From positions 1 to 39,962 of the IMG/VR virus record IMGVR_UViG_3300017776_000044: 39,962 nt of DNA, one strand, 5' to 3'. Of this stretch, positions 2,190 through 39,903 are shown piece after piece (the first letter of the stretch is position 1; each line of letters opens with the position of its first letter). Both the position numbers and the translations under genes were made by a program. Below the pieces are notes generated by a model. It made no database searches, was not told where the DNA came from, and was given only the letters and a program-made list of their open reading frames with translations. Source of the DNA: a virus.

Positions 2190-2537
2190 ATGCAGATAGA
2201 GAAAAAGACAGTAGCCGCATGCGCTTCACAGCTTGAGGCGTTTGCGGTGTCTGACCCCTACATGAGCTTGCCGCAGGTTCTTACTTTTGTGCGGCTGATC
2301 GAGCTACTCGCTGATTCGGAAGACCGTTGGGTGCGGCAGTCGGACGTGAGTGCAGGCGTACCAGTGACGCAGCCCAGCGTAAGTAGGTGTCTAAGTTACT
2401 GGTCTAAGTTTGGAGACCGAAAGCACCACTTTTTAGAGCTAGCACAAGACCCGCAGGATCGGCGGCACATGTTGGTTGCACTAACTGCAAAGGGGCAGGC
2501 GTTCGCCAGGACAGTCTTCCCGCAACTAAGGGAGTGA
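2190..2537 (+). CDS. MarR-like winged-helix transcriptional regulator
   Basis: A 115-residue DNA-binding protein. Residues about 50-75 (RQSDVSAGVPVTQPSVSRCL) form the helix-turn-helix with the recognition helix. DPQDRRHMLVALTAKGQAF (about 88-106) is the beta-wing and following strand typical of the MarR family. MarR proteins are dimers that bind palindromes of about 16-20 bp, often next to their own gene; such a palindrome lies 16 bases upstream. The gene ends overlapping the Shine-Dalgarno of the integrase gene, so the two are co-transcribed. No CI-type repressor is present, so this is the best candidate for the lysogeny regulator or for control of integration. Ligand, if any, is unknown. 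Confidence 0.8.
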   Translation: MQIEKKTVAACASQLEAFAVSDPYMSLPQVLTFVRLIELLADSEDRWVRQSDVSAGVPVTQPSVSRCLSYWSKFGDRKHHFLELAQDPQDRRHMLVALTAKGQAFARTVFPQLRE

Positions 2538-2539
2538 AA

Positions 2540-3394
2540 ATGCAGACTTTATCCAGCGTAATCAAACAGTGCCGCGGCGTTGTCTTCCGCAACCACCGGG
2601 ACCAGCGAGGCGTGCGCCAACACCTTAACGCCCTGTCTCGCAGCTACCTTGGCCCAATGCCAGTTGAGCATGTCACGGCGCAAGACATACTGGCCTTGGT
2701 GGATGACATGATTAATGCCCAAGCCGCTGACGGCACGGTGGTGCACAGAGTGTCAAAGCTGAACCGCGTGTTAGGCTACGCGTTCGACCGTGGGTTGAGG
2801 ACAACGCCACCTCCCAAGGTAAACATCACCCGCCACACTCGACAGCGCGAGTACGAAATCTTGCCCGAAGTGGAAGACGCATTTGCTGCCGAGCTAGCTA
2901 AGAGGGGCGTGCGGTTTGCGCACCTTTTTAAGTTCTTGTTGTACACTGGCGCACGATACGGCGAGGTGACAAGACTAGACTGGGCAAGCGTCTCGGACTC
3001 GCAAGTTACGTTCCTGGCTAGCACTGTTAAGACGGCGAAGGCGCGCACGTTGCCCCTTTTCCCCCCTGCTGCGGCAGCCATTGCTTGCATGCGCGAAGCG
3101 TACAGCACACAACCTGGCCCGTTCCATTGGGCACAGGATCATCACTATTTTTATCGGCGCTGGAATCCAGCCAAGAAAGCGATTGGCCTGCGTGATGAAA
3201 AAGATTTCGTGCCGCATGCGTGTCGTCACACGTGCATCACTCGTCTTGCCCGTGAGGGTATGAGTACGATGCGCCTTCAACAGTGGGGTGGTTGGGCTAG
3301 TCTCACCATGCTACAACGCTACTCTCATCTCGAAGCGAGCCGCGATTTAAGCGACGCCACGCAACGTTATGCGATTGACAAGCCTCCCGCTTAG
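2540..3394 (+). CDS. int: Tyrosine-type integrase
   Basis: Site-specific recombinase of 284 residues (start ATG 2540; AGGGAG lies six bases upstream; an in-frame GTG at 2534 is an alternative). The catalytic set is complete: Arg139 in TGARYGEV, Lys164 or Lys167 in VKTAKAR, His226 and Arg229 in PHACRHTC, Trp252 in QWGGWAS where many members have His, and the nucleophile Tyr261 in LQRYSHL. The N-terminal 100 residues contain a SAM-like core-binding region. It follows the MarR-like gene and its 3' end is 35 bases from a tRNA-Thr segment, the usual int-attP arrangement. This makes the phage temperate or recently so. Confidence 0.95.
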   Translation: MQTLSSVIKQCRGVVFRNHRDQRGVRQHLNALSRSYLGPMPVEHVTAQDILALVDDMINAQAADGTVVHRVSKLNRVLGYAFDRGLRTTPPPKVNITRHTRQREYEILPEVEDAFAAELAKRGVRFAHLFKFLLYTGARYGEVTRLDWASVSDSQVTFLASTVKTAKARTLPLFPPAAAAIACMREAYSTQPGPFHWAQDHHYFYRRWNPAKKAIGLRDEKDFVPHACRHTCITRLAREGMSTMRLQQWGGWASLTMLQRYSHLEASRDLSDATQRYAIDKPPA

Positions 3395-3529: not shown

Positions 3530-6010
3530 ATGACCGCGAATTTTAGACGCGAAGATGAAGCGCAACGCACCGACAGTGCTTCGACGGAACAGCAAGAACT
3601 AAACAAACAGATGAAGCTGCGTGGCCAGCGCGCTTGGGTCAGTGGGTTTCACCGGCGCATGGCTAGCGGTGACGCCAGCACGCTACCACCTCTCCGTCAT
3701 TTGGCAGGTGGTTTGCACGCTGACCTGACAGATAGGTTAGAAAGACTGAGCGTGCAAGCCCCACCCCCAGGACGGTACGCCAAGGGCAAGTGGGCGCTGG
3801 CGCACTACGTCCAAGCGGCCAACGCGGAAGACGTGGCAAGTGTAATCATCGGGCAAACAATGAACCTCACGATGCGCCAGCTCCACGGCATGGCGTTTGC
3901 GCAGTACGCACGCATCATCGGGGAGCGGGTGCAAGATTATGTTCGACAGTCAGCGTACCTGCGTTCGTTTGCAGTTGACGCGTTTGACTACATCGACAGG
4001 GCCAAACGTGAGAGGTACGGCAACCGCATGGTCAAGCGTCGGCATGTCCGCCGGATCATTGATCGGATTGAGGGCTTTGACCCCCTGCCAGAAACCAGCA
4101 TCACGCAAGCCGCCATTGGTTGCGCAGCGTGGCATCTTATGTCTCTCACCAGTAATCTTTGGGAGGTGCAGAAGCGCCTGACGCCCCGTGGCCACTGGCA
4201 ACCGTGGGTTGTCCTGCGTGACGTGGCTTACTTCCACATTCGTGACCTGGCTGAGCAGTTTGGGGCGCGCCGTATGCTCCCGTTGCCTATGGTTGACGTG
4301 CCGGTAGACTGGCAGGCTGAAATGCCGTGGGCTGGTGGGTATAGTGACATTGGCAAGCGTGCGTTGGTTCGGGGATGGACGCGCAAAGACTGTGACTTGC
4401 TGGGACTGAGCCAGCGGCCAGGTCTGCACGGGGACGTTAAGCTTAACCGTATGGTGGCCGCAGTGAACTTGGTGCAGCGCACGAAATTCCGCATGAACCC
4501 CGTGGTCCTAGAAGCTCACCGATGGATTGTCGAGAACGATATAGCGTGCGAGCTATACCCCCGGTTTGTTGAGAAGCCAACGTTTGAGCCAGCCGTGTGG
4601 GACAACACTGAGACACGTCTGGCTGCACGCAGCGAGCTTAAAGTGGCAAGGGTGCAGCGCACCAAAAATCTGCCAAAGCGCAGCACCGCGGCAATCAATG
4701 ACGTACACATGCACATGTTTGAGGGCAAAGAGTTTTATCTGCCTGCTGCCCTGGGTGTGTACGGCAGGATAATGCACCGCCCGATGATTAATCCGCAAAC
4801 AAGTAAGGGCGTGCGCGGGTGCATGGAGTTCGCACACGCTGAGAGAATTGCCGGGGATGACGCTGCTGAAGAGCTGCTTATCTCGATCGCTAACGATTGG
4901 GGCCAAGACAAAGCGACGTTAAGCGAGCGCGTCGCATGGGTTGAAGAGCATGATGGCATGCTGCGCAGTGTGGCGGCTGACTACAAACGTAACCAAGACT
5001 GGCTGGATCAAGAGGCACCGACAATGGCCTTGCGTGCGGCCCTTGAATACAGCGCTTTTAAGGAGGAAGGTCATGCTTTGGACTCGCATTACGTCTGCTA
5101 CAGGGACCAAACATGTTCGGGACCGTCACATTTTAGCTCTATGCTTCGGGACAGCAGCGCTTACGCAGACCTTGGCTTGGTGTCTACACAATATCGACCT
5201 GACATTTATCGCAGCATCGCTGAGCGCGCTGTTGAAATAGCAAGGGGTATCGACACACCCGTCTGTCAAGCGGTGGCGCGGAACGGCATACCACGAAGCA
5301 TAGCCAAGGCGGTTGTGATGCCTGGTGGTTACGGGGGTACGAAGCTTGGAACCTACCGCAAACTGCGAGATGAAATCGTGGGGGCTAGTGTCGCAGGAGA
5401 AATCGAGCGGCCCTTCGAAGACACGTACGCATACAGCAAAGCGCTTAACGAGGTTGTCTGGCTGGCATACGAAGAGCGGCTAAGTCGCACACGGGACGCA
5501 ATGAAGTGGTTGCGCAGCGTGGCCACTGAGTTTGCCGCACAGAACATACCTATGTCGTGGGTGTCACCAAGTGGTCAGCCAATAAAGTTGGCTAAGTGGA
5601 CGCGCAAAGAGCGCAAAATTGAAACTCTGATCGGCGAGCAACTTTATCGCCCTACCTATTGGGCCGATACTAATGAGCTTGACCCCCACCGCATGCGCAA
5701 CACCCTGCCCGTGGCTTTCGTGCACAGCTACGAGGCCGGTTTTCTGCACAACTCTCTTGCTCGTATGGGGGATGATAACGTCCCCATCAATAGCGTTGTG
5801 CCTATCCACGACTGCATTGGCGTGCACGCTAACGCAGTGACACAAACAGTAAGGACTTTTAAAGATGAGTGGTCCCAACAATACGACGGGCAAGAAATCT
5901 TTGACCGGCACTTTGGAGAGTGGCAAGCAATCTGCCCCAAAATTGAAGAGCCGCCAAAAACAGGCAGTGTCCCCTTTGACCTTGCCACCAGTGACTACTT
6001 CTTCCACTAG
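3530..6010 (+). CDS. Phage single-subunit DNA-directed RNA polymerase
   Basis: T7 gp1-type polymerase of 826 residues (T7: 883) that would transcribe middle and late genes. Palm and fingers motifs are clear: motif A DQTCSGPSHFSSMLRD with Asp526; motif B RSIAKAVVMPGGYG with Arg589, Lys593 and Tyr601 at the T7 spacing; motif C PIHDC with His760-Asp761. The C-terminus ends in aromatic residues (SDYFFH), like the T7 foot. The usual D-x-x-G-R element before motif A is degenerate: VYGR with Gly409 and Tyr411 where T7 has Asp421 and Arg423. The N-terminal 300 residues, including the promoter-recognition region, are divergent. Start ATG follows AGGAAAC. It is the first gene after attP. Confidence 0.96.
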   Translation: MTANFRREDEAQRTDSASTEQQELNKQMKLRGQRAWVSGFHRRMASGDASTLPPLRHLAGGLHADLTDRLERLSVQAPPPGRYAKGKWALAHYVQAANAEDVASVIIGQTMNLTMRQLHGMAFAQYARIIGERVQDYVRQSAYLRSFAVDAFDYIDRAKRERYGNRMVKRRHVRRIIDRIEGFDPLPETSITQAAIGCAAWHLMSLTSNLWEVQKRLTPRGHWQPWVVLRDVAYFHIRDLAEQFGARRMLPLPMVDVPVDWQAEMPWAGGYSDIGKRALVRGWTRKDCDLLGLSQRPGLHGDVKLNRMVAAVNLVQRTKFRMNPVVLEAHRWIVENDIACELYPRFVEKPTFEPAVWDNTETRLAARSELKVARVQRTKNLPKRSTAAINDVHMHMFEGKEFYLPAALGVYGRIMHRPMINPQTSKGVRGCMEFAHAERIAGDDAAEELLISIANDWGQDKATLSERVAWVEEHDGMLRSVAADYKRNQDWLDQEAPTMALRAALEYSAFKEEGHALDSHYVCYRDQTCSGPSHFSSMLRDSSAYADLGLVSTQYRPDIYRSIAERAVEIARGIDTPVCQAVARNGIPRSIAKAVVMPGGYGGTKLGTYRKLRDEIVGASVAGEIERPFEDTYAYSKALNEVVWLAYEERLSRTRDAMKWLRSVATEFAAQNIPMSWVSPSGQPIKLAKWTRKERKIETLIGEQLYRPTYWADTNELDPHRMRNTLPVAFVHSYEAGFLHNSLARMGDDNVPINSVVPIHDCIGVHANAVTQTVRTFKDEWSQQYDGQEIFDRHFGEWQAICPKIEEPPKTGSVPFDLATSDYFFH

Positions 6011-6435: not shown

Positions 6436-7006
6436 GGCTTACCAAGTCCGCAAAGTCATGTTGGGGCGTTGCCGTCTCATGAACAACGTTAAGCGCAAAT
6501 GGTTTTACAACGTGCAGCACCCGAGCAAGATCACCGAGAACTACGAGGTGTGCATTGGCATTCCCGCAGCCGCATGGGAGGCGCTTGAGCCAGACTGGAA
6601 TGTGGCTTTCGATAGCTGGGGCTTGGATCGAGACAGCAAGATCGAACGGGTCACGGAGTTTGACGAGCAGTTGGCTGTGGTTCGCACGGCGCGCAAGTAC
6701 CAAAATAAAGACGGATCGGAATGGGCGCAGCCTAAGATTTTCGACAGCCGTGGCCAGCCTGTTAAGCCTGACCTCATGCCAGGCCACGGGTCCGTGATTC
6801 GACCCACTATTTTGCTGCGGTCCACAGAAAAAGGCGGGACACACTTTATGCAAGTGCAGCCAGCTTCTTTCCAGCTAATCAAACTCGAACAACACGTGGG
6901 GACTTATGACGCAGTGGAAGAAGAAGGTGCCTACGTCGCAGAAAACAGCTACGCGGCTGTCGCGGGTGGGTACGTCGCGGAATCTGAGGTCCAGGCCGAG
7001 TTCTAA
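6413..7006 (+). CDS. Single-stranded DNA-binding protein (T7 gp2.5-like)
   Basis: A 197-residue protein likely to coat single-stranded DNA and contact polymerase and helicase. Resemblance to T7 gp2.5 is in the central beta-barrel segment: IFDSRGQPVKPDLMPGHGS, then strands leading to QLIKLEQHVG. The tail ends in EVQAEF; a terminal Phe after acidic residues is the signature of gp2.5. The tail is less acidic than in T7. Of two in-frame ATGs, 6413 is chosen because AAGAGG is nine bases upstream; it touches the ATG at 6404. It sits between the small acidic gene and the endonuclease, as in T7. Confidence 0.75.
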   Translation: MTIQPFTEAYQVRKVMLGRCRLMNNVKRKWFYNVQHPSKITENYEVCIGIPAAAWEALEPDWNVAFDSWGLDRDSKIERVTEFDEQLAVVRTARKYQNKDGSEWAQPKIFDSRGQPVKPDLMPGHGSVIRPTILLRSTEKGGTHFMQVQPASFQLIKLEQHVGTYDAVEEEGAYVAENSYAAVAGGYVAESEVQAEF

Positions 7007-7415
7007 TCCCGGCAACCTGCAAGATGACGAAGGGTTAATTAAAGGTTTCCGCAGTCAGTTTGAAGAACGCATCGCATCGGACTTGGTGTCAAGAGGCATC
7101 AGGTTTCGGTACGAGCGCGAGGCCGACAAGCTGACGTGGATTAAACCCGCCACACACCACGTTTACACGACGGACTACGTGCTGCTGCTACCTGGCAACC
7201 GACAGATTTACGTCGAAGCTAAGGGGCGGCTGACCGGGGAAGACATGGCGAAAATGATTTTCATTCAGCGACAATACCCAGGGCTGGATATTCGGTTTCT
7301 GTTTGCCAATGCACGCACGTCCGCTGGGCGGCAAAAGAAAAACGCAGGTGAGTGGGCGACACGACACGGATTTGTTTGGGCAGAAAAGGTGGTGCCGGAG
7401 GGATGGTTGACATGA
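6906..7415 (+). CDS. Endonuclease I, Holliday-junction resolvase (T7 gp3-like)
   Basis: Resolves branched DNA and helps degrade host DNA. Catalytic residues of the T7 family are visible: Glu53 in SQFEERI, Asp90 in TTDYVLL, and Glu104-x-Lys106 in VEAKG, with the T7 spacing. The core begins near residue 48; the 45 residues before it are basic, low-complexity and overlap the SSB gene by 101 bases. The true start is therefore uncertain: ATG 6906 (GGGG four bases upstream) or GTG 6966, which has no Shine-Dalgarno. The stop overlaps the primase-helicase ATG as ATGA. Confidence 0.88.
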   Translation: MTQWKKKVPTSQKTATRLSRVGTSRNLRSRPSSNPGNLQDDEGLIKGFRSQFEERIASDLVSRGIRFRYEREADKLTWIKPATHHVYTTDYVLLLPGNRQIYVEAKGRLTGEDMAKMIFIQRQYPGLDIRFLFANARTSAGRQKKNAGEWATRHGFVWAEKVVPEGWLT

Positions 7416-34817: not shown

Positions 34818-35825
34818 ATGACAAAAGACATAATCACAAGCGGCGTCTTCAGCCTCGGGTCACTCGGCGGTGACGGGGCTTCAACCACACGTCCAACACG
34901 GCGCTGGGGTGGGATCACCGGGCGGTCTCTGGTGGATACCTCGACCGACATCGAGTACATCATCGTCGGCGGAGGCGGTGGTGGCGGTGGCTATCACGGC
35001 GCTGGCGGCGGTGGCGGCGGCGTACTGTATGGCACGGCAACGCCCACTACATCATTTGCACTAACTGTTGGTGATGGCGGTGCTCGCAACGCTAATGGCG
35101 GAGACTCTGAGGCGCTTGGTCTGACTGCGATTGGGGGCGGTTCTGGTGGCGCAGGATCTGACAGCGGCGGCGATGGTGGCTCAGGCGGCGGTCGTGGCGG
35201 CTGGACTGGTAGTTTTTCAATCGGCCTCGGGACTGCTGGCCAAGGCTATAATGGCGGTGATTTTATCCAAGTTATTGCCAGTCCACCCGCTGGCGTAGGC
35301 GGCGGCGGCGGCGGTGCTGGTGGCGTAGGCGTCGATGCAGGGTCCAATCGGGCTGGCTCAGGGGGCATCGGCCTAACAAACGCATTCCTAAACACGCTGC
35401 AATACGGCCAGTATTCTGGCGGAAACTACTACGTCGCTGGCGGCGGCGGTGCTGGTGGTTGGCAAAGTGAGAGCGTTTTGCAAGGTAATGGCGGCGTTGG
35501 TGGTGGCGGTCGAGGCGGCTACGGCAGCAGCACCAACTACCAAAGCGGCACCAACGGCTTTGGCGGCGGCGGTGGCGGCAAGCAGCAGAATACAAGCGTA
35601 TCTGGTGCAGGGTCCGGTGGCTCAGGCGTTGTAATCCTGCGCTACCCAAGCACCGCTACGCTAAGCATCCCCTCAAGCTTAACTTACACGCATGATGACA
35701 CGACAGTCGCAGGATTTACGATCACCACATTCACAGGTGGCACTGGTACTGTAGAGGTGGCATCCGGCGGCCTCCAAACGACCGGCGTGATGAGCCTCGC
35801 CGAACACTACCAAACAAAAATCTAA
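34818..35825 (+). CDS. Glycine-rich adhesin-like protein 2
   Basis: 335 residues, about a third Gly. The glycine-rich domain starts at IEYIIVGGGGGGGG (about residue 49) and ends at GSGVVILRYPSTATLS (about 272-287), with many runs of three to seven Gly. This suggests packed polyglycine helices or exposed loops. The N-terminal 45 residues probably attach to the tail, and the C-terminal 45 form a short beta domain. It is a paralogue in plan, not in loop sequence, of the preceding gene. The GGN repeats in the DNA favour slippage and variation. AGGAGAGCG precedes ATG. Confidence 0.8.
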   Translation: MTKDIITSGVFSLGSLGGDGASTTRPTRRWGGITGRSLVDTSTDIEYIIVGGGGGGGGYHGAGGGGGGVLYGTATPTTSFALTVGDGGARNANGGDSEALGLTAIGGGSGGAGSDSGGDGGSGGGRGGWTGSFSIGLGTAGQGYNGGDFIQVIASPPAGVGGGGGGAGGVGVDAGSNRAGSGGIGLTNAFLNTLQYGQYSGGNYYVAGGGGAGGWQSESVLQGNGGVGGGGRGGYGSSTNYQSGTNGFGGGGGGKQQNTSVSGAGSGGSGVVILRYPSTATLSIPSSLTYTHDDTTVAGFTITTFTGGTGTVEVASGGLQTTGVMSLAEHYQTKI

Positions 35826-36312: not shown

Positions 36313-36537
36313 ATGACAGACAGTACCGAGCATCTGCAAGAGTTGCACAGCGCTTTGGCTAGTGATCTTCTTGCGCGTATTCAATCCGGCGAGGCTACCG
36401 CGCAAGAACTAAGCGTGGCTGTTAAGTTTCTTAAAGACAATCACATAGAAGCAATAGCTACACCGGATAACGATCTTGGGAAACTAATGGCCCACGCCCC
36501 AATCTTTGACGACGACGGCCCTGCAACATTTAATTAG
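36313..36537 (+). CDS. terS: Terminase small subunit (T7 gp18-like)
   Basis: 74 residues, close in size to T7 gp18 (89). HLQELHSALASDLLARIQSGEATAQELSVAVKFLKDNHIEA is the recognisable helical core of the small subunit in T7-like phages of marine bacteria. It should recognise the concatemer and activate the large subunit. AGGAG lies before the ATG. Its place, between lysis membrane proteins and TerL, agrees. Confidence 0.82.
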   Translation: MTDSTEHLQELHSALASDLLARIQSGEATAQELSVAVKFLKDNHIEAIATPDNDLGKLMAHAPIFDDDGPATFN

Positions 36538-36798: not shown

Positions 36799-38460
36799 TT
36801 GTCAACGGATGTATTCAAAAAAGATTTTCGCAAGTTCCTCTGGCTTGTTTGGCAGCACATTGGTTTGCCCGACCCAACGCCAGTCCAGTACGACATAGCG
36901 AATTACATTCAGGGCGGGCCGAAGCGAAGCATTATTCAAGCGTTTAGAGGTGTCGGCAAATCATACGTAACAAGCGCCTACTCTGCGTGGATTTGGCTTA
37001 ATGATCCTAACGCTAAGGTATTAGTTGTATCCGCAAGCAAAGAGCGCAGCGACGCCTTCTCCACGTTTACTCAGCGCATTATCTCAGAGCTACCTATTAC
37101 GCAGCATTTGCAGCCGAGTATCGAGCAGCGAAACAGCAAGGTTGCCTTTGATGTTGGCCCCGCGACTGCAAGCCACGCACCTAGCTGTAAGTCTGTAGGC
37201 ATCACGGGCACTATCACCGGGTCACGCTGCGATTACTTAATTGCAGATGACGTAGAGGTTCCGAACAACAGCGCGACGCAACTGATGCGCGACAAACTCA
37301 GCGAGCTAGTCAAAGAGTTTGACTCAGTGCTTTCGCCAGGTGGCCGCATCATATACCTGGGCACGCCGCAAACAGAAGACAGCTTGTACACGCGGCTGCA
37401 AGAACGCGGCTATAGCACGCGGATTTGGCCTGCGTTGAAGCCTAGTGAGAACGAGGAAGTTGGCTACGGTGGCACGCTTGCGCCGTACATCAGTCAGCTT
37501 GACGCCCCCGCTGGTAGCACCGTGGACCCGCATCGTTTCTCCGAGACAGACCTGGCCGAACGACAAGCAAGCTACGGTAAAGCCGGGTTTGCCTTACAGT
37601 TCCAACTCAGTACAAGCATGTCGGATGCTGATCGTTATCCGCTAAAGATGCGCGATGTTCTTTTCATGCCGCTTGACCCCGAGACAGCGCCAATGAGTCT
37701 GACGTGGGGTCCGATTGACGACCGCATGATACGACACGTGCCGAACGTGGGAATGAAAGGTGACGGCATGTACGAGCCTATGGCCGTCAGCACAGTCACC
37801 AGCCCGTATACCGGAAGCGTCATGGCGATTGACCCCAGCGGACGCGGCGCTGACGAAACCGGATACGCCGTCGTCAAGATGCTTAACGGCTACCTGTTCG
37901 TTCACGAATGCGGTGGGCTCAAAGGTGGTTACGACGAAGAGACTTTGGGCATCCTGGCAAGCATTGCAGAACGCAATAAGGTCAACGCGGTCATCACTGA
38001 GTCCAACTTTGGTGACGGCATGTTTACCGAACTGTTCCGCCCGGTGCTTCATCGTTCTCACAAATGCTTGGTCGAAGAGGTACGACACAGCAAACAGAAA
38101 GAGCGCCGCATGATTGACACCTTGGAGCCGGTCATGATGCGCCACAAACTTGTAGTGGACCCGAAGGTGGTCGAGACGGATTACCGCTCAGCTAACGCGT
38201 ATGAGGCCACTCAAAGATTAAGCAAGATGCTCATCTACCAGATGACGCGATTGACCTCCGAGCGAGGCGCACTGCGGCACGATGATAGAATCGACGCGCT
38301 TAGCATCGCAGTGGCGTACTGGTCCGAACAGATGGCGGTGGATGAAGCAAAAGGTATAGCCCGTCAGAAACAAGAAGCTTTAGACAACGAGCTACGCAGC
38401 TTCATAAAGCTAGCGGGGAAACACGCGCCCCGGCCACGCTGGGTGGATACCTCTAGGTAA
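36799..38460 (+). CDS. terL: Terminase large subunit (T7 gp19-like)
   Basis: 553 residues (T7 gp19: 586). ATPase: Walker A RGVGKS (50-55), Walker B LIADDVE (Asp150, Asp151, Glu153), coupling motif YLGTPQTED. Nuclease: AIDPSGRGADETG, VITESNFGDG and the C-terminal DDRIDALSIAVAYW supply the acidic metal ligands. It cuts concatemers and pumps DNA through the portal. An in-frame TGA at 36793-36795 excludes a longer form, so the start is TTG 36799, without a clear Shine-Dalgarno; two nearby ATGs are out of frame. The 123-base leader has a strong hairpin and a GGGAGGAGG run. Confidence 0.95.
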   Translation: MSTDVFKKDFRKFLWLVWQHIGLPDPTPVQYDIANYIQGGPKRSIIQAFRGVGKSYVTSAYSAWIWLNDPNAKVLVVSASKERSDAFSTFTQRIISELPITQHLQPSIEQRNSKVAFDVGPATASHAPSCKSVGITGTITGSRCDYLIADDVEVPNNSATQLMRDKLSELVKEFDSVLSPGGRIIYLGTPQTEDSLYTRLQERGYSTRIWPALKPSENEEVGYGGTLAPYISQLDAPAGSTVDPHRFSETDLAERQASYGKAGFALQFQLSTSMSDADRYPLKMRDVLFMPLDPETAPMSLTWGPIDDRMIRHVPNVGMKGDGMYEPMAVSTVTSPYTGSVMAIDPSGRGADETGYAVVKMLNGYLFVHECGGLKGGYDEETLGILASIAERNKVNAVITESNFGDGMFTELFRPVLHRSHKCLVEEVRHSKQKERRMIDTLEPVMMRHKLVVDPKVVETDYRSANAYEATQRLSKMLIYQMTRLTSERGALRHDDRIDALSIAVAYWSEQMAVDEAKGIARQKQEALDNELRSFIKLAGKHAPRPRWVDTSR

Positions 38461-38500
38461 ACATGGAGATTCTACAGACGTAGTGAGAACACGACGCTTA

Positions 38501-38683
38501 TGCAGGCGAAGCAAAAGCTTGGCGATTGCGCACTGAAAGTCGTGCCAAAGAAACGAACATAAAAGAGCAGACCTTAAGGCTTAAGCTCTTAGTTTATACT
38601 TAGTGATTAAGCTTTATGTTTTATAAGGATTTTCTTTGGCTAGACTTTCAGTGCGCAATCGTCACGTTCTAGCTACGCCTGTA
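38501..38683. repeat. 53-bp imperfect inverted repeat with AT-rich centre
   Basis: Arms 38501-38553 and 38631-38683 are exactly equal in length and pair symmetrically. The inner block is 19 bp perfect (38523-38541 with 38643-38661), then two mismatches and ten more pairs (GCCAAAGAAA). The outer block pairs TGCAGGCGAAGC with GCTACGCCTGTA (two mismatches), and the two blocks are joined by a partly paired eight-base stretch. The 77-base centre is AT-rich and contains AAGAGC...GCTCTT and TTTATA words. It could form a cruciform, a long RNA hairpin, a replication origin element or a packaging/terminal signal. Confidence 0.85.
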
Positions 38684-38710
38684 TTACGCCAAGCTCCTGC
38701 TACGCCTGCA
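38672..38710. repeat. Direct repeat GCTACGCCTG
   Basis: GCTACGCCTGTA (38672-38683) and GCTACGCCTGCA (38699-38710) are 27 bases apart, differing in one base. The first copy is part of the right arm of the large inverted repeat. The second pairs even better with the left arm (TGCAGGCGAAGC, one mismatch), so two alternative foldings are possible. Confidence 0.6.
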
Positions 38711-39019
38711 CAAATCGCCATGTGCTTAAACTCGGGCAGAAGCTCTAAGTACCGGGGGTCAAACTAGGCGATTCTCGCGCTCATGTCAAATCGCTTTTGA
38801 TACAAAAATGTGAACGCTAGTTCTAAGAGAGCGGCGCGTCGTGACCCCCCTCTGCCCCCCTGTTTGCCTCTTGTTTTGCCCACGTCCCACGAATAAACCT
38901 AGCGATTACAGCACGGTAACACGCATTGTTAGTGCGTTGTGCATGCCGTGGGGCACGATATGGGCACCTAGACGCATACAATAGTACGTAAGTGTTAGCG
39001 CGGGCCCCATGTCCACATT

Positions 39020-39189: not shown

Positions 39190-39453
39190 ATGTCACAGCA
39201 ATGCACGGGGGGAAGCATAATGGTTTACGAAATGAAGCTGAAGCTACGCCATGCCGCTAGGCACGATTATGTAGACTACATGCGACGCGAGTTTGCGCGG
39301 TATGGGTTTACGCGTTCGCCACTTACAAATAGTCAAATAGTGCACTGCTGGCGTGCGGGTCTAGACTTTGAGCGCTGTCATGGCGTGGGCTGTGACGTGA
39401 ACAGCGGGTACACGTTTTGGCGTGCCGTTGAAGTGAACGGGGGGCAAGCGTAA
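39190..39453 (+). CDS. Hypothetical early protein
   Basis: 87 residues (MSQQCTGGSIMVYEMKLKLR...), basic, with several His and Cys (HCWRAGLDFERCHGVGCDVN) but no clear metal-binding spacing. Start ATG 39190 has AGGGAG at a good distance; an in-frame ATG at 39220 lacks one. First gene after the non-coding region. Its stop overlaps the next ATG (TAATG). Family unknown. Confidence 0.65.
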   Translation: MSQQCTGGSIMVYEMKLKLRHAARHDYVDYMRREFARYGFTRSPLTNSQIVHCWRAGLDFERCHGVGCDVNSGYTFWRAVEVNGGQA

Positions 39454-39641
39454 TGTTGAACCCAGACAATAGAGACTTTGCGCTTGCGCTTGTGCAAGAC
39501 GAAGGTTTCGACACAGAAGCAATGCTGATTGCGTGCCTTGTTTATATGTCTAACGACGATGTGGGCGACATGTTGCACAGCAACGAGTACCCCACGCCAG
39601 ACGACGAGGGGTGCAGTGATGCCTACGATGCACAAGCTTAG
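39453..39641 (+). CDS. Hypothetical acidic early protein
   Basis: 62 residues (MLNPDNRDFALALVQDEGFD...), strongly acidic, ending in DDEGCSDAYDAQA. Coupled to both neighbours: TAATG at its start and a 23-base overlap with the next gene. Small acidic early proteins in T7-like phages often inhibit host nucleic-acid-binding proteins (for example DNA mimics); this is only a hint from charge and place. Confidence 0.65.
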   Translation: MLNPDNRDFALALVQDEGFDTEAMLIACLVYMSNDDVGDMLHSNEYPTPDDEGCSDAYDAQA

Positions 39642-39903
39642 CAACTATCGCACAACGTGGTTCGCTGAAGGCACCACGGGGGGCGTGACGTACGCAGAAA
39701 CACAGATTGTTTCGTGGACGCAAGACACAGTGACGCTGAACAGTGGCGGCTATGAGACTGTCACGACAAAGCGCAAAATGAACCAAGCGTCTAATCAATT
39801 CGCGCTTGGCTTTGGCGTCTATCAGCGCAAAGACAAATGGTACGTGGACGATGCACAAGGAAACGTGCACGAATTCCACGATGGAATTACCTTGCGTCGC
39901 TAA
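39619..39903 (+). CDS. Hypothetical early protein
   Basis: 94 residues starting MPTMHKLSNYRTTWFAEG at ATG 39619, which has GAGGGG eight bases upstream; the open frame further left only shadows the acidic gene. It looks like a small beta-rich protein: GVTYAETQIVSWTQDTVTLN, VYQRKDKWYVDDAQGN, HEFHDGITLRR. The WYV-D-x-G-N-x-x-F-x-DG pattern resembles short proteins of other podoviruses without known role. Last complete gene in the window. Confidence 0.65.
   Translation: MPTMHKLSNYRTTWFAEGTTGGVTYAETQIVSWTQDTVTLNSGGYETVTTKRKMNQASNQFALGFGVYQRKDKWYVDDAQGNVHEFHDGITLRR

Follow-up and report, generated by a model that had tools for sequence, protein, structure and literature searches.

The right-hand end and the terminal repeat of T7-group phages are located in the region that corresponds to the stretch following the gene for the large terminase subunit (TerL). 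A hairpin end of T7 was reportedly mapped ~190 bp leftward of the mature end, and the T7 palindrome found 190 bp left of the repeat is presumably the site to which it was mapped. Phages with known termini served as comparison; the annotation, or a match between the two ends of the record, supplied the position of each terminal repeat. In the interval from TerL to the repeat, palindromes have their centres 190 and 110 bp left of the latter in T7, 183 bp in T3, 210 bp in YeO3-12 (phiYeO3-12), 145 and 69 bp in K11, 112 bp in gh-1, and 108 bp in K1F; the interval contains no clear palindrome in Syn5 or LUZ100. Taken singly, the T7-group palindromes are modest above chance, being reached by 1-13 of 200 mononucleotide shuffles. 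T7 (record L141, 39568-39608), T3 (L142, 37770-37820), YeO3-12 (L181, 39139-39179), and K11 (L183, 40834-40878) share a palindrome of 41-51 bp with AGGGAT...ATCCCT ends, the interior of which has diverged but is still paired, and its centre lies 145-210 bp left of the terminal repeat. In the title of Chung, Nardone and Hinkle (1990), as cited in PMC4925675, a concatemeric hairpin end of T7 is presented as a possible processing intermediate, and the T7 hairpin is also mentioned in a passage of PMC4281155.

A survey of TerL relatives took in 450 bases across and beyond the end of TerL in 33 independent clusters other than that of the phage studied here. In 12 of the 33 clusters, the top inverted repeat of the locus falls within this stretch, compared with 1.9 expected (Wilcoxon p 9e-6 for the inverted-repeat score). 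A post-TerL palindrome is a recurrent, not universal, feature: many of the relatives surveyed show none, and the largest belongs to the clade described below. Some of the repeats elsewhere, such as that of CRP-403, may be no more than terminators between convergent genes. Other long inverted repeats were found at +125 to +245 after TerL in L019, +75 to +210 in L007, and +167 to +284 in L168, with G.T over A.C mispairs of 4:0, 4:1, and 4:1, respectively; unlike the palindrome described below, these may act at the RNA level, for example as terminators. L078 has a very strong inverted repeat (score 53.5) far from TerL, 4206-4316 bases past its end.

A 263-bp palindrome directly after TerL

The window, that is, the whole stretch of 39,962 bases analysed here, is an entire virus record designated 'linear', and comparison of the window with itself found no end repeats. 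Judged by its gene content, the virus is a T7-like phage. Profile searches found genes for a single-subunit RNA polymerase (3530-6010), a primase/helicase, a DNA polymerase, and an exonuclease, together with an endonuclease I of the T7 gp3 type (6906-7415, + strand; PF05367, E 8e-28), which belongs to an enzyme class cutting branched DNA and cruciforms. Both terminase subunits are of T7 type: the small subunit resembles gp18 (36313-36537, + strand; PF11123, E 6e-18; phrog_891) and TerL resembles gp19 (36799-38460, + strand; PF22530, E 3e-40; phrog_38, E 5e-117). The nearest named TerL relatives are those of the Roseobacter phages CRP-804, CRP-118, and CRP-403 (62-64%). A tyrosine integrase (2534-3394; PF00589, phrog_1) is encoded with a transcription-regulator-like gene upstream (phrog_9665; region 2190-3394), and given these two genes the phage may be temperate. 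Glycine-codon-rich GGCGGTGGC repeats (34967-35580) occur within a 335-aa ORF (34818-35825) that probably encodes a glycine-rich protein of the tail or fibre, and an early ORF (39529-39903) is related to Kyanoviridae Gp96 (PF23790, phrog_554).

The imperfect palindrome (quasi-palindrome) starts at 38461, the base directly after the TerL stop codon TAA (38458-38460), and spans 263 bp to 38723, with its midpoint at 38592; these limits were obtained from the self-match and the arm alignment, and no strand is assigned. In the self-comparison of the window, the opposite-strand match was 70% identical with an E value of 3e-24. The left arm (38461-38553, + strand; arm alignment and autocorrelation) and the right arm (38631-38723, - strand; repeat search and arm alignment) each measure ~93 nt. 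They enclose an AT-rich centre, or loop, of 77 nt (38554-38630, no strand; sequence and repeat search). The outer part of the left arm has a 28-nt period and that of the right arm a ~27-nt period. The first-pass annotation had described an inverted repeat with arms of 53 bases around this centre; the repeat is indeed present where it was placed, and its size has to be corrected to the extent given above.

The repeat search defined core arms at 38500-38553 and 38631-38684, which are 54 nt long, 83% complementary, and 77 nt apart. They contain the two perfect blocks that had been noticed before, CGATTGCGCACTGAAAGTC (19 bp) and GCCAAAGAAA (10 bp), and both blocks lie in the inner left arm (38523-38553, + strand), which pairs with 38631-38661. 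The additional copy of the outer arm, pointed out earlier as allowing an alternative fold, was located at 38687-38708 (77% identical), where 38498-38524 can pair with 38687-38713. The palindrome is the top-ranked inverted repeat of the entire window, and in a sliding local self-alignment it scored 52 compared with 18 for the runner-up anywhere in the window, which agrees with the earlier remark that nothing comparable occurs elsewhere. The inverted repeat is therefore confirmed; it has no other long counterpart in the window and is larger than first described. Compared with dinucleotide-preserving shuffles, RNA folding gave z values of -8.7 and -13.5 for the two strands. DNA folding gave z values of -11.9 and -11.6 with energies of -72.1 and -70.5 kcal/mol. 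Folding of both strands, proposed as a check in the first-pass annotation, thus places the element far beyond shuffles as RNA and as DNA.

Nothing convincing is coded between the TerL stop at 38460 and the next ORF of at least 60 aa, the first early ORF at 39190, and the palindrome occupies this position in all three lineages considered below. ORFs in the palindrome itself are of 25-43 aa only and unconvincing. DNA matches to named phages reach the TerL region only, and none covers the palindrome. The most conserved non-coding block beside it (38782-38862, + strand; CATGTCAAATCG..ACAAAAATGTGA.CGCTAGTTCTAAG..GACCCCCCTCT) was recovered at a distance of 29-59 bases past the palindrome in each of the three lineages, and is our best guess as a candidate region for the genome terminus. 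The block begins 190 bp right of the palindrome centre, and the match of this spacing with the T7 distance is suggestive as a coincidence only. A search of the window for further copies of the block, which could have marked a phage promoter, gave none that was convincing. The contig ends of close relatives showed no common end; L001 alone stops at 38956.

The palindrome shared by T7, T3, YeO3-12, and K11 resembles that of the window in lying between TerL and the terminal repeat (in the window, the candidate terminus block), in accompanying a gp18/gp19 terminase, in its capacity to form a DNA hairpin, and in its spacing, with 145-210 bp from centre to repeat and 190 bp from centre to conserved block in the window. 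The window palindrome differs in several ways: it is six times as long as the 41-bp palindrome of T7, has no sequence in common with it or with the AGGGAT...ATCCCT ends of the group, is built from tandem 28-nt units around a long centre, and abuts TerL directly.

Maintained pairing of the arms in related phages

Nine other contigs bear the palindrome at the same place (L001, L002, L086, L087, L088, L089, L137, L003, and L090). L001 is 99.96% identical to the window. L002, L086-L089, and L137 have a TerL about 95% identical to that of the window, and L003 and L090 one that is 84% identical; in both of these further lineages (TerL 95% and 84%) the palindrome is written in different letters. Between the window and L003, the left arms are 53% identical and the right arms 63%. 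Within a genome, arm complementarity is 77% in the window, 71% in L002, and 74% in L003, so the two arms of one genome resemble each other more closely (71-77%) than either resembles its counterpart in a distant lineage (53-63%). The 77-nt centre is poorly conserved among the relatives.

As a null model, both arms were allowed to drift independently from a perfect palindrome, for which ~58% would be expected in the window/L003 and L002/L003 comparisons. The observed pairing exceeds this value, with P of 7e-5 for the window, 7e-4 for L003, and 6e-3 for L002. For the closely related window and L002, the test is of low power (P 0.05 and 0.38). Comparing the window with L003, 14 columns have changed on both sides and are still paired, which are the compensatory changes that the first-pass annotation had suggested looking for in related phages. 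The same annotation had named the loss of paired arms in relatives as grounds for rejection, and the arms are kept as pairs. Independent drift of the arms fails to explain these data, and therefore the pairing has been maintained, either by selection or by copying from arm to arm.

The outer arms form inverted arrays in which a unit of ~28 nt occurs about two to two and a half times, and the inner ~35 nt of the arms lie outside the array. The lag-28 autocorrelation of the left arms is 0.48 in the window, 0.66 in L002, 0.61 in L003, and 0.58 in L090. Three tandem copies at 28-nt spacing are present in L002 (TRF score 113) and two in L003 (TRF score 106). The units of the window are diverged, and the tandem repeat finder reported no 28-nt array there. 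The unit GGCGTAGCAAGAAC showed no excess over chance elsewhere in the window, four of its seven matches being the palindrome itself.

The inner right arm of the window is a perfect 19-bp match to its own left arm, whereas L002 and L003 have a different sequence in common at this position of their right arms (GTAAGT.CTTCC). The simplest reading of these three lineages is that the right arm of the window was rewritten from the left arm.

An RNA stem tolerates G-U pairs, so that G.T mispairs are expected to outnumber A.C mispairs on a strand whose RNA is under selection. The G.T : A.C counts were 8:7 in the window, 8:7 in L002, 8:6 in L003, and 6:7 in L090; pooled over three lineages they were 24:20, without bias in what are small numbers. 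Both strands of the palindrome fold about equally as DNA. A promoter and terminator scan of the junction found nothing at the palindrome, with no T-run or terminator match in 38461-38760, and an Rfam scan of the whole window gave no match. The criteria of an intrinsic terminator (GC-rich stem, short loop, and T-run) do not describe an element with a 77-nt loop and no T-run. The even mispairs and the lack of a T-run or terminator-like site favour action at the DNA level, to be taken with caution given the small numbers.

Possible functions at the proposed concatemer junction

The palindrome is best read as an enlarged version of the T7-group palindromes between TerL and the direct terminal repeat, with a function that we infer by analogy with those phages. 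Of the four options raised in the first-pass annotation, a hairpin for concatemer processing has the strongest support, because the terminase genes are of T7 type, the place directly after TerL is conserved, the arms show compensating changes in relatives with no strand preference, and T7-group phages with known termini have palindromes at the corresponding place. We hold with moderate confidence that the element is a DNA-level palindrome at the concatemer junction whose role corresponds to that of the T7 hairpin site; it may in addition serve as an array for terminase binding. Following the published T7 model, replication would yield concatemers joined head to tail, in which neighbouring genomes share a single terminal repeat at each junction. 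The gp18/gp19-type terminase, perhaps seated on the 28-nt units, would act near the junction, and the palindrome would fold back and close or prime the end left of the repeat. The repeat would then be copied, and each genome would retain both copies. Such a scheme predicts a terminus within about 200 bp right of the palindrome, a hairpin intermediate at the palindrome, and binding of terminase to it.

A more specific form of this proposal, which we offer tentatively, is a fold-back site of inverted 28-nt terminase-binding units in which one arm is copied from the other during concatemer processing. The inner right arm of the window, with its 19-bp match to the left arm, has the look of such a copy. 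If true, the T7 hairpin intermediate would be visible here as an evolutionary footprint.

It is rather unlikely that the element is simply a protein-binding array, in which the inverted 28-nt units would be sites on double-stranded DNA for the small terminase (pac) or another phage protein, and self-complementarity would be a by-product of head-to-head sites and exchange among units. The tandem units of L002 and L003, the lag-28 periodicity in the left arms of all lineages, and the adjoining terminase genes are consistent with such an array. However, the inner ~35 nt lie outside the repeat and yet pair as well in the window (19 bp + 10 bp), and the unit letters vary among lineages (ACACCGCGCTTATA, ACATGGTGAGA), which would be odd for a fixed binding site. 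To our knowledge, no T7-type pac site in the form of inverted 28-nt units has been described, which also counts against it. Lambda cosB and pac arrays likewise have repeated units near the genome end beside terminase genes, but these are not inverted into a long stem, and terminase binding to the units of the window is putative.

An RNA element, namely a long stem at the 3' end of the late transcript that is cut by RNase III or that stabilises or ends the transcript, is unlikely. Both strands do fold strongly as RNA, and the gh-1 stem-loop R13 (37000-37069) is annotated as a putative RNase III site. The inverted repeat of R13 (37003-37061) also follows TerL and lies 112 bp short of the terminal repeat; it differs in being a 59-bp annotated RNA site, whereas the window palindrome carries no RNA-strand signature. 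The mispair counts show no clear excess of G.T, and the T-run, terminator, and Rfam searches described above were negative. Two of the earlier options, a long-stem regulatory RNA and an antiterminator/terminator switch, gain no support from these results, which gave no T-run, no G-U bias in the small mispair counts, and no Rfam match.

A replication origin like phiOR near the T7 right end, with the AT-rich 77-nt centre lying between inverted units, is improbable. The phiOR promoter does lie between TerL and the repeat in T7, T3, YeO3-12, and K11, but no recurring promoter-like sequence of the window phage was recognised at the palindrome, and the centre is poorly conserved.

Still more improbable is an attachment or resolution site for a phage tyrosine integrase or telomere resolvase, although an integrase is encoded in the window. 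N15-type telomere-resolvase sites are also large palindromes in phage DNA, but they are near-perfect and accompanied by a resolvase gene, whereas the window palindrome is imperfect (arms 77%) and no telomere resolvase (PF16684) was found in the record. In five distant genomic relatives (L150, L156, L160, L162, and L175), an integrase match lies 3.7-8.4 kb past TerL on the same contig, which would make the junction an unlikely place for those proviruses to open. An assembly artefact or chance can be set aside, being refuted by the nearly identical L001 and eight further contigs with diverged versions, and no shuffle reaches the palindrome.

How the terminal repeats of T7-type phages are duplicated as concatemers are cut was reportedly left unanswered by the 1990 work on the T7 hairpin. 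The pairing kept amid sequence turnover is comparative evidence that the folded DNA form matters at the junction, and this large palindrome is well suited to tests of the hairpin model. For assembled T7-like phages whose termini have not been mapped, it may also help to predict the genome end from sequence.
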